From: Acidimicrobiales bacterium | GTDB lineage: Bacteria; Actinomycetota; Acidimicrobiia; Acidimicrobiales; AC-9 | DNA: 46,177 nucleotides | Reading direction: 5' to 3' | Assembly (NCBI GenBank): GCA_036270875.1 | Contig: DATBBR010000075.1 | Span: forward strand, 1-46,177 | Part shown: positions 2,437-15,849 of the stretch, one piece after another | Layout: the number at the start of each line of letters is the position of its first letter | How positions within the stretch are numbered: the first letter of the stretch is position 1 | Notes under the pieces: generated by a model | What the model was told of the DNA's origin: nothing | Seen by the model: only the letters and a program-made list of their open reading frames with translations | Database searches by the model: none | Translations under genes and position numbers: made by a program

Positions 2437-3486
2437 GTGGAACGTGACAAGGCGCTCGACATGGCGATCGGGCACGTCGAGAAGCAGTTCGGCAAGGGCT
2501 CGATCATGCGCATGGGCGAGCGGGCGGACATGGCCATCGAGTCCGTTCCCACCGGCGCCATGGCCCTCGACCTGGCCCTCGGCGTGGGTGGATTGCCCCG
2601 GGGCCGGATCGTCGAGCTCTACGGACCCGAGTCCTCGGGGAAGTCGACCTTGGCCATGCACGTGGTGGCCGAGGGGCAGCGCAACGGGGGCATCTGCGCC
2701 TACATCGACGCCGAGCACGCCATGGACCCGGTCTACGCCAAGGCCATCGGCGTCGACATCGACGAGCTGCTGATCTCCCAGCCCGACACCGGGGAGCAGG
2801 CGCTCGAGATCGCCGACATGCTCATCCGGTCGGGAGCCCTCGACGTGCTGGTCGTCGACTCGGTGGCGGCCCTCACCCCCCGAGCGGAGATCGAGGGAGA
2901 GATGGGCGACGCCCACGTCGGCCTCCAGGCCCGTCTCATGTCCCAGGCGCTGCGCAAGCTCACCGGGACCCTTAGCCGCTCGAACACCATCGCCATATTC
3001 ATCAATCAGCTGCGAGAGAAGATCGGGGTCGTCTACGGCTCACCTGAGGTGACCCCTGGCGGGCGGGCGCTGAAGTTCTACTCCTCGGTCCGCCTCGACA
3101 TCCGCAGGATCGAGTCCATCAAGGACGGCGGCGAGGTCATCGGCAACCGCACGCGGGTCAAGGTCGTGAAGAACAAGTGCTCGCCGCCTTTCAAATCCGC
3201 AGAGTTCGACATCATGTACGGCCGGGGCATCAGCCGGGAGGGGTCGGTCATCGACGTCGCCGTCGACCTGGGCATCGTGAAGAAGTCCGGAGCCTGGTAC
3301 ACCTACGAAGGCGAGCAGCTCGGCCAGGGGCGGGAGAACGCCAAGCAGTTCCTGTTGGAGAACGCCGAGTTGATGGTCGAGCTCAACGAGCGTGTCCGGC
3401 AACAGGTGGGAATGGGTTCGGGGTCTCAGGACGTTCCATTGGGGGCGCAGACCGAAGACGACGAGCCCATCTCACTGAAGGAATGA
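2437..3486 (+). CDS. recA: RecA recombinase
   Basis: The 349-residue protein is a full-length RecA: GPESSGKS Walker A at residues 63-70, the [10 protein letters not shown] block, [11 protein letters not shown] (Walker B), the NQLREKIGV segment and the conserved C-terminal region. RecA forms filaments on single-stranded DNA, drives strand exchange and triggers LexA self-cleavage. There is no intein, unlike recA of some mycobacteria. The GTG start has a GAGGGGA ribosome site. Transcription probably responds to DNA damage through the SOS box at 2331 and perhaps a second promoter at 2376. A perfect hairpin lies 48 bases after the stop. No recX follows, although recX sits behind recA in many actinobacteria; spoVS and miaB come next instead. 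Confidence 0.98.
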
Positions 3487-13931: not shown

Positions 13932-14564
13932 TTAGAGCCGGCGGAGGACGGTCACCACCTTGCCGTAGACGGTCACCTCGGCCGCGTCGTGCTCGAGCGG
14001 CTCGTAGTCAGGGTTGGCGGGCCGGAGCACCACCTTGCGCCCCCGGCGGCTGTAGAACTTCACGGTGGCGTCGCCATCGGGGAGGCCGGCGGCGACGATG
14101 TCGCCCCGCTCGACCTCGGGCTGCTGGCGCACCACGACGTAGTCGCCGTCGAGGATCCCGGCGCCCACCATCGAGTCGCCGCGCACCTTGAGCATGAACA
14201 GGGTGCCGGTCCCGGTGAAGTCCTGGGGGAGGGGCATGAGGTCCTCGACGTTCTCCTGGGCGAGCACGTCGGTTCCGGCGGCCACCTCTCCGACCAGGGG
14301 CACGTGCCGCACCGGCCGGCTGGCCAGCGCCGCCCCCGAGGAGGGGTCGTAGCTGACCGTGATGGCGCGGGGCTTGGTCGGGTCGCGCTGCAGGAAGCCC
14401 TGGCGCTGGAGCGTGGCCAGGTGGGCGTGGACAGTCGACGACGAGTTGAGGCCCACGGCCTCGCCGATCTCGCGCACCGACGGTGGATAGCCGCGCTCCT
14501 GGAGCCGCTCGGCGATGAAGTCGAGGATCTCCCGCCGCTTGCCGCTGAGCATCGCCTCGGGCAT
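13932..14564 (-). CDS. lexA: LexA, SOS-response repressor
   Basis: The 210-residue protein has the LexA winged helix (PSVREIGEAVGLNSSSTV, about residues 28-45) and a C-terminal S24 latent protease domain. The self-cleavage site is A96-G97 (EVAAGTD), with catalytic S131 (GDSM) and K169 (ATVKF). When RecA filaments form, LexA cuts itself and its targets are switched on. The ATG at 14564 has GGAGGAG about nine bases upstream; the frame stays open much further upstream but that part is not coding. Its promoter (candidate TACCCT -10 at 14672-14667) is bracketed by two SOS boxes, so it is probably autoregulated. It diverges from the LysM gene, as in Bacillus, Corynebacterium and Mycobacterium. Confidence 0.97.
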   Translation of the reverse strand: MPEAMLSGKRREILDFIAERLQERGYPPSVREIGEAVGLNSSSTVHAHLATLQRQGFLQRDPTKPRAITVSYDPSSGAALASRPVRHVPLVGEVAAGTDVLAQENVEDLMPLPQDFTGTGTLFMLKVRGDSMVGAGILDGDYVVVRQQPEVERGDIVAAGLPDGDATVKFYSRRGRKVVLRPANPDYEPLEHDAAEVTVYGKVVTVLRRL

Positions 14565-14651
14565 TGTCTCGCTCTCCTCCCCGTCGGCCCGTCCAGCGGG
14601 CACCGTTCCCGTGGAATCTCCCTGCGACCGGGCCCGCATCGGACCCGGCGT

Positions 14652-14665
14652 CGAACGTGCGTTCC
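14652..14665. promoter_or_regulatory. SOS box 1, lexA promoter start-site region
   Basis: CGAACGTGCGTTCC matches CGAAC-RNRY-GTTYC at all defined positions. It lies just downstream of the candidate lexA -10 (TACCCT on the minus strand at 14672-14667), covering the expected transcription start. Confidence 0.8.
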
Positions 14666-14692
14666 CAGGGTACCAGGGCCGTCGTGCGGGGG

Positions 14693-14706
14693 GAAACATC
14701 TGTTCG
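14693..14706. promoter_or_regulatory. SOS box 2 (degenerate), lexA -35 region
   Basis: GAAACATCTGTTCG keeps the right half-site GTTCG but has two changes in the left half and one in the spacer. It overlaps the expected -35 region of the lexA promoter. Its position between better boxes, 41 bases centre to centre from box 1 and 29 from box 3, suggests a weak operator. Confidence 0.45.
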
Positions 14707-14721
14707 ACCGCCGCTTGACAA

Positions 14722-14735
14722 CGAACAGACGTTCG
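14722..14735. promoter_or_regulatory. SOS box 3, inside the LysM-gene promoter
   Basis: CGAACAGACGTTCG fits the consensus fully and has perfectly inverted CGAAC/GTTCG arms. It begins two bases after a perfect -35 hexamer TTGACA (14715-14720) on the plus strand, and a weaker -10, TCTGCT, lies at 14739-14744. LexA bound here would block the promoter of the LysM gene. Confidence 0.85.
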
Positions 14736-14754
14736 TGATCTGCTGGATGGCAGG

Positions 14755-14768
14755 AGAACAGGTGTTCG
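14755..14768. promoter_or_regulatory. SOS box 4, just downstream of the LysM-gene promoter
   Basis: AGAACAGGTGTTCG differs from the consensus only at the first base. It lies 33 bases centre to centre from box 3 and just beyond the expected transcription start of the LysM gene. Confidence 0.65.
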
Positions 14769-14782
14769 AGTCACGGCAGGCG

Positions 14783-14827
14783 ACGAGACCCGGGCGCCGA
14801 GACCCGGGCGACGAGACCCGGGCGACG
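14783..14827. repeat. 14-bp tandem repeat in the LysM-gene leader
   Basis: Three near-identical 14-base units (ACGAGACCCGGGCG with one A/C change) begin at 14783, 14797 and 14811, followed by ACG. They lie between SOS box 4 and the LysM start codon, within the predicted untranslated leader. Each unit contains the self-complementary CCCGGG, so alternative hairpins are possible. Confidence 0.8.
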
Positions 14828-14855
14828 TGAACCGATCGAGCAGAAGCGAGCGAGC

Positions 14856-15287
14856 ATGGCCGCCATTGCCTACCCCCTCCCACGGGACCGTGCCGGCGCT
14901 CGCCAGCCCGTGCGGCCGCCCGAGCCGCGCCGGCTGGCCGGCGCCGAGCCCATCGATCGCCGACGCCGCCGCCCCCCCAGTCCGGCGGCGCGGCGAAGGG
15001 CCACGATCCGGCGTCGGCTGACGGCCATCGCGTTCGTCGTGGGGCTGGTGCTGGTCATCCGGCCCCTCGTCCTGCCCGGGGGCGATCCCCTCGTCGTCCC
15101 CGGGCGGGCGACGCCAGCCGCGGCCGCCGCCGGCACCCGGACCTACATTGTCCAGCCGGGCGACACGCTGTGGAGCATCGCCCGTCACCTGCACCCCGAC
15201 CAAGACCCGCGGCCCCTGGTGGATCAGCTGTCCACACAGGTCCCGGGGGGCTCCCTCCAGGCCGGTCAGCGCGTCGTGCTGCCCTGA
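14856..15287 (+). CDS. membrane-anchored LysM protein, probable SOS cell-division suppressor (YneA/DivS/ChiZ-like)
   Basis: The 143-residue protein has a basic, Pro/Arg-rich cytoplasmic N terminus (1-54), one membrane span at about residues 55-74, a short Ala-rich linker and a single LysM domain at about 95-142 ([13 protein letters not shown]). LysM binds peptidoglycan glycan, so the domain should lie outside the membrane. Small LysM proteins divergent from lexA are SOS-induced division inhibitors in Bacillus (YneA) and Corynebacterium (DivS); the mycobacterial Rv2719c (ChiZ) occupies the same place. Sequence similarity among them is low, so the assignment rests on architecture, synteny with lexA and nrdR, and the SOS boxes at 14722 and 14755. 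No strong ribosome site is visible before the ATG. Confidence 0.85.
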
Positions 15288-15364
15288 TCTCGCCGTCGGC
15301 CGCGACGGCGGCCAGTGTCGCTGGGACGCACCAGAGACACGACGCGCCGGCGAAGTTGGAGCGA

Positions 15365-15378: not shown

Positions 15379-15849
15379 ATGCGCTGTCCGATGTGCTCGA
15401 GCCTCGAGGACCGGGTGGTGGACTCGCGCTTGGCCGACGACGGCACGGCCATCCGCCGCCGGCGCGAGTGTGCGAGCTGCGGGCGCCGGTTCACGACCTT
15501 CGAGCGCATCGAGGAGGCGGCGCCGATGGTCGTCAAGCGATCGGGCGACCGGGAGCCGTTCGAGCGCTCCAAGGTGGTCGCCGGCGTGCGGGCGGCCACC
15601 AAGAACCGGCCCGTGAGCGGCGAAGCCATGGACGCCCTGGCCGGCGAGGTCGAGGAGGCCATGCGACTGCTCGGTCCGGAGCTGACCAGCCAGCAGATCG
15701 GCGTCGCTGTCCTCGACCGGCTTCGCCGTCTGGACGAGGTGGCGTACCTGCGCTTTGCCAGCGTGTACAAGGGCTTCGAGGACGTGGGTGATTTCGAGCG
15801 GGAGGTCGGCTTGCTGAGCAAGGCGACCGAGCCCAAGCGGCGAGTGTGA
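15379..15849 (+). CDS. nrdR: transcriptional repressor NrdR
   Basis: NrdR represses ribonucleotide reductase genes when dATP is plentiful. The 156-residue protein has the N-terminal zinc ribbon (MRCPMC and CASC, four cysteines), the following [10 protein letters not shown] block, and an ATP-cone domain ([16 protein letters not shown] onward). Length is normal. The ATG at 15379 was chosen because the family begins M-(R/H)-CP-x-C; the longer in-frame starts lie inside the LysM gene region. nrdR follows lexA and the LysM gene in other actinobacteria too. The stop lies 12 bases before the phosphofructokinase gene. No NrdR box was recognised in this window. Confidence 0.96.

Follow-up and report, generated by a model that had tools for sequence, protein, structure and literature searches.

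The 291-base gap between lexA and a gene for a small LysM protein in an Acidimicrobiales bacterium is, in our reading, a LexA-controlled divergent SOS switch in which each promoter is served by two operators, to which we assign a probability of roughly 0.8. What is observed directly are the sites themselves, their conservation, and their association with the LysM gene and with promoter elements. The gap lies within the window, by which we mean the whole stretch of DNA that was analyzed (46,177 nucleotides), and the features on which the argument draws are as follows.

13932..14564, minus strand: lexA, SOS repressor, 210 amino acids (TIGR00498 equivalog, 222 bits; cut-off 111)
14652..14665: LexA box 1, CGAACGTGCGTTCC, over the predicted lexA start
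14667..14672, minus strand: candidate lexA −10, TACCCT, placed by comparison with relatives
14690..14695, minus strand: candidate lexA −35, TTCCCC (TTGnnn in relatives), overlapping box 2
14693..14706: LexA box 2, GAAACATCTGTTCG, which reads CAAACnnnnGTTCG in relatives
14715..14720, plus strand: LysM-gene −35, TTGACA, directly before box 3
14722..14735: LexA box 3, CGAACAGACGTTCG, within the −35/−10 spacer of the LysM promoter
14739..14744, plus strand: candidate weak LysM-gene −10, TCTGCT, spacer 18, from sequence inspection
14755..14768: LexA box 4, AGAACAGGTGTTCG, just past the predicted LysM start point (near 14751)
14856..15287, plus strand: LysM gene, 143 amino acids, candidate SOS division inhibitor (PF01476, 27.1 bits; cut-off 20.9)
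15379..15849, plus strand: nrdR (TIGR00244, 162 bits), downstream of the LysM gene and possibly cotranscribed with it

In a profile search, the lexA product carries both the LexA_DNA_bind and the Peptidase_S24 domains above their curated cut-offs; its closest named relatives come from Acidimicrobiales and other Actinomycetota MAGs, and lexA was found in 55 of 59 relatives. The initial annotation of this DNA had claimed four SOS-box-like sites between lexA and the LysM gene, and all four are present exactly where it placed them. Measured against the box consensus CGAAC-N4-GTTCG (a 14-mer with the 12-base core GAAC-N4-GTTC), box 3 is a full match and box 4 has one mismatch with a perfect core, as had been described. 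Box 1, also presented as a full match, is one with respect to the core but departs from the 14-mer at one position, and box 2 has two mismatches. Such a concentration of sites is well above chance, by shuffles as well as by genome counts. Among 3000 dinucleotide-preserving shuffles of the gap, two contained at least four sites at two or fewer mismatches, and none contained at least three sites at one mismatch or fewer. When the 2.99 Mb genome was searched with the exact core pattern rather than a PWM, 25 sites were found, compared with 10 for a reversed control pattern; three of the 25 fall within 115 bp in this gap, and any other two are separated by more than 6 kb.

Conservation within the genus is concentrated on the boxes. 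Three species, that of the window and two congeners, agree at 55 of 56 positions within the boxes (14/14, 14/14, 13/14, and 14/14 for boxes 1 to 4), compared with 40 of 61 positions in the inter-box spacers and 27 of 174 in the leaders on either side (15/87 and 12/87), both of which have diverged. For the wider comparison, the lexA upstream regions of relatives were reduced to 171 non-redundant loci; a LysM gene is present at 138 of these and is divergent from lexA in every one. At least three boxes with no more than one mismatch occur at 117 of the 138 loci with the LysM gene and at 4 of 27 loci without it, most of the latter carrying exactly one box (Fisher p 2e-10 for box number against LysM presence in a smaller locus set), in counts that are not independent, as the loci share descent. 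The reversed control pattern appears in the comparison loci at 0.006 sites per 400 bp. Since arrays of three or more boxes are found mainly where the LysM gene is, boxes 3 and 4 go with that gene and boxes 1 and 2 with lexA. At four loci (L017, L023, L035, and L039) the lexA pair and the LysM pair lie far apart with their internal spacing kept, and the integrity of each pair despite the larger gap is direct evidence for two boxes per promoter, bearing out the 2 + 2 split between divergent promoters that had been proposed at the outset.

The same comparison gives the reach of each box, with the qualification that box 2 was chosen in the distance counts for boxes 1, 3, and 4 by the TT at its −35, a rule that misses exceptions: among loci with a box 2 promoter, 49 of 94 in the order and 2 of 33 elsewhere in the phylum have a box on the lexA side, 36–52 bp from box 2; a box 20–38 bp beyond box 3 is present at 84 of 88 order loci. 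A box 1 so placed is mainly characteristic of the order. Boxes 2 and 4, on whose conservation in relatives the original proposal had been made to depend, are both conserved, and box 2 is the most widespread of the four. The boxes recur at the same gene in relatives, and their identification as LexA operators is supported by sequence and conservation together.

Box 2 had been called degenerate, which is right insofar as it has two mismatches, but the term falls short, because in relatives the mismatch appears to be the −35 of lexA. The CAAACnnnnGTTCG form of the box occurs in 119 of the 171 lexA upstream regions (the mirror form in 21), and its altered half ends in TTG when read on the lexA strand. 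At 58 of 70 loci, a spacing of exactly 17 nt separates TAnnnT from the hexamer at the box 2 edge, against about 0.9 expected from shuffles. An earlier tally of box 2 mismatches was circular, having required TT at the −35, and an unbiased count was used in its place: TAnnnT at exactly N17 accompanies 101 of 125 CAAAC boxes versus 5 of 299 CGAAC boxes. The CAAAC mismatch usual in relatives is best explained by these bases serving as the −35 of lexA. Placing the promoter in this way agrees with the earlier suggestion that boxes 1 and 2 cover the lexA start and −35, and the predicted start (~14660) falls inside box 1. The window genus has GAA in place of the usual CAA (box 2 GAAAC, −35 TTCCCC); a weaker lexA promoter is predicted from this change, with a box 2/−35 pair weaker than in relatives.

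Two further arrangements were seen at lexA loci of relatives. At 26 loci (e.g., L034, L071, L072, and L154) a CGTACnnnnGTTCG box lies exactly 24 bp from the CAAAC box 2, its mismatch coinciding with the lexA −10 (TACGnT) as the CAAAC mismatch does with the −35. At 46 of the 171 loci (e.g., L027, L043, L045, L046, L050, and L052) LexA boxes stand end to end as two or three tandem units, repeating every 15 bp exactly. A 15-bp period would set adjacent LexA dimers on nearly opposite faces of the DNA, and lattice-like binding of LexA on such arrays is possible.

On the LysM side, TTGA(C/T/A) stands 0–2 nt ahead of a box in 71 of the 75 such cases found in relatives, and box 3 therefore fills the spacer of the LysM promoter. 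Relatives show little conservation of the −10 and a weak preference for a spacer of 17–18. These positions fit the initial placement of box 3 between a perfect TTGACA and a weak −10, with box 4 just past the start. A generic sigma-70 scan called no promoter on either the lexA or the LysM side, so both candidate promoters rest on comparison with relatives; a generic terminator scan found nothing. RNA structure in the LysM leader showed no excess stability (z −0.17). The leader also contains a 14-base tandem repeat, GGCGACGAGACCCG, in 3.5 copies (14779–14827), which did not show up in the two aligned congeners.

An argument from helical phasing, also advanced in the initial annotation, fared less well. 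The center spacings of 41, 29, and 33 bases are correct for the window, but the helical phases they imply are not conserved in relatives, in which spacings run from 38 to 51 between boxes 1 and 2 and from 22 to 36 between boxes 3 and 4. For a 10.5-bp turn, Rayleigh R of the three spacings is 0.18 (boxes 1–2), 0.24, and 0.16 (boxes 3–4). Spacings thus spread over every helical phase, which leaves the argument unsupported, and helical phasing of the boxes was rejected.

Two alternative readings concern the boxes themselves. Lone boxes with two mismatches are frequent (51 within the window), as would be expected if the four were chance palindromes of a GC-rich gap; the shuffles, the genome counts, the conservation in the genus, and the recurrence across the order all oppose this, and conservation refutes it, so we give it practically no credence. 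The other alternative accepts the operators but holds that only boxes 2 and 3 function, one per promoter, with boxes 1 and 4 auxiliary or decaying. The scarcity of box 1 outside the order speaks for it, since most loci there would then manage with one lexA operator, and so does the lexA gene of Mycobacterium tuberculosis, which has a sole functional box according to PMC8151990. Boxes 1 and 4 are nevertheless identical at 14/14 positions in the genus even though the leaders have been lost, and nearly all order loci (the 84 of 88 above) have box 4 or a counterpart of it beyond box 3. We consider a single operator per promoter unlikely and retain the reading with two.

A third alternative accepts the LexA control and concerns what it acts upon, namely that the LysM protein serves in wall remodeling or envelope stress and does not inhibit division. 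The LysM fold is a general means of binding peptidoglycan, wall hydrolase activity has been ascribed to ChiZ (PMC3989709), and this Acidimicrobiales clade is without a known division phenotype, all of which would suit such a role. However, the size of the protein, its single membrane helix, its Arg-rich tail, and its place divergent from lexA all fit YneA/ChiZ, and no catalytic domain was recognized in it by profile search. A wall-remodeling or envelope-stress role is thus a minority possibility that we rate as rather doubtful, and the protein is probably a division brake, by analogy with those families. The short protein has the YneA/ChiZ-type layout attributed to it earlier, with a short cytoplasmic tail, one membrane helix, and a LysM domain. 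In an AlphaFold model, an Arg/Pro-rich, low-confidence, unstructured tail precedes a helix at residues 43–72, predicted to be the membrane helix, and a LysM domain at residues 95–142 with a beta-alpha-alpha-beta fold; the top structural matches of the model are LysM domains (weak E-values, probability near 1). The Arg-rich tail would place the tail itself in the cytoplasm and the LysM domain outside. All 24 aligned members match the LysM profile, and the gene keeps its location beside lexA, under LexA boxes and divergent, at the 138 loci already mentioned. YneA blocks division by means of its membrane helix and LysM domain, and its peptidoglycan-binding residues D46 and T47 are needed for activity (PMC13396833). 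The Asp and Thr of the GDT motif here correspond to these two residues, and the motif is kept in the order alignment, with G102 and D103 invariant and T104 nearly so. In LysM proteins of the order, the cytoplasmic tail is variable apart from a conserved MxA(I/V) start and a conserved RRR cluster ahead of the membrane helix; the two features may possibly form an interaction or turnover signal.

Many relatives appear to add a second damage input at the LysM gene. A motif for RecA-independent damage response, tTGTCRgtg-N8-TAnnnT (PMC5656591), is the PafBC promoter (PMC8223512). Upstream of the LysM gene, TGTYACACC occurs at 48 of the 138 LysM loci (0 for two control patterns), and nAnnnT follows TGTYACAC after exactly 8 nt in 44 of those 48, the combined motif standing directly ahead of the gene (e.g., L024, L091, L095, and L098). 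Genome-wide, TGTYACAC-N8-nAnnnT is found ahead of genes assigned by eye from sequence as radA, uvrD-like helicases, sbcD, lhr, recB-like nucleases, and HNH genes. In some genomes (G004 and G020) the TGTYACAC motif occurs about 20–30 times, often 6–7 nt ahead of the start codon of a repair gene, a leaderless arrangement. PafBC/RecA-NDp promoters share the layout and the position ahead of repair genes genome-wide; they differ in having gtg after TGTCR where the LysM relatives have CAC, and PafBC binding to the latter is putative. WYL-domain pairs resembling pafB-pafC were found, and one relative from the phylum (L117) has the canonical TTGTCGGTG-N8-TATCCT ahead of a LysM-like divergent gene.

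Within the window, recA (2437–3486) has a perfect LexA box at 2331–2344 and a PafBC/RecA-NDp-like site at 2378–2398, GTCACACCCCATCCATAGGGT, which can also be read as GTCACACC-N7-TAGGGT or TGTCACAC-N8-TAnnnT. Dual control of recA by a LexA box and a PafBC/RecA-NDp promoter is known from mycobacteria. The recA site is the sole exact match in the window to a TGTC-type motif followed by N8-TAnnnT, and a search of positions 14560–14860 for this motif found none, so that the LysM gene of the window lacks a promoter of the PafBC-dependent type. It seems from the comparison that in many relatives the division brake is coupled both to LexA and to a PafBC-like promoter, as two damage inputs, and that the window genus keeps only LexA at the LysM gene.

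By analogy with known families, LexA would bind this gap, DNA damage would induce both genes, and the LysM protein would inhibit division. LexA dimers would occupy two operators at each promoter: on the lexA side box 2, which overlaps the −35, and box 1, over the start point; on the LysM side box 3, in the −35/−10 spacer, and box 4, just past the start. As long as LexA is intact, both genes would be off. RecA on single-stranded DNA would lead to LexA self-cleavage and release both, and fresh LexA would bring repression back; in the meantime the membrane LysM protein would delay septal wall synthesis until repair is finished.

Little work exists on SOS control in Acidimicrobiia, and a full-text search for literature on LexA and SOS in the class returned just one review, on an unrelated subject. 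The comparison yields an order-wide operator map of the core SOS switch and offers an explanation of a degenerate operator as a promoter element. What is new besides is that a third of the LysM relatives also have a PafBC-like promoter, which the window genus lacks at its LysM gene although recA in the window has one. A broader picture for Actinomycetota can be sketched, which we hold tentatively and at somewhat less than even odds: lexA operators would be dual-coded (CAAAC as −35 and, in one Acidimicrobiales group, CGTAC as −10, 24 bp away), some would form 15-bp arrays, and a composite LexA array would control the LysM brake, often joined by a PafBC-like promoter that acts as a separate damage input. 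If dual coding is true, operator strength and promoter strength would be unable to evolve separately.

Comparable arrangements are known from other bacteria. In Bacillus subtilis, yneA likewise encodes an SOS-induced TM-LysM division inhibitor near lexA (PMC13396833, PMC3989709), but it belongs to another phylum and its likeness to the LysM protein rests on the LysM domain. Corynebacterium glutamicum has an SOS-induced division suppressor, DivS, encoded near lexA, although DivS and YneA are not significantly homologous (PMC3989709). The closest parallel in layout is that of M. tuberculosis, for which PMC8151990 (citing Dullaghan 2002) describes four SOS boxes ahead of lexA: one serves lexA, and the other three, along with a PafBC motif, govern the divergent operon (printed as Rv2019c-Rv2017c in one passage, which we take as a misprint for Rv2719c-Rv2717c). 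The lexA/Rv2719c (chiZ) region thus shares with the window four boxes, a small membrane LysM gene near lexA, and a divergent operon, and it differs in dividing its boxes 1 + 3 with a PafBC motif, whereas the window has 2 + 2 and a LysM gene without a PafBC-like motif. Rv2718c we take to be nrdR. With four boxes already known in M. tuberculosis, the window represents a 2 + 2 variant and not a new kind of system.
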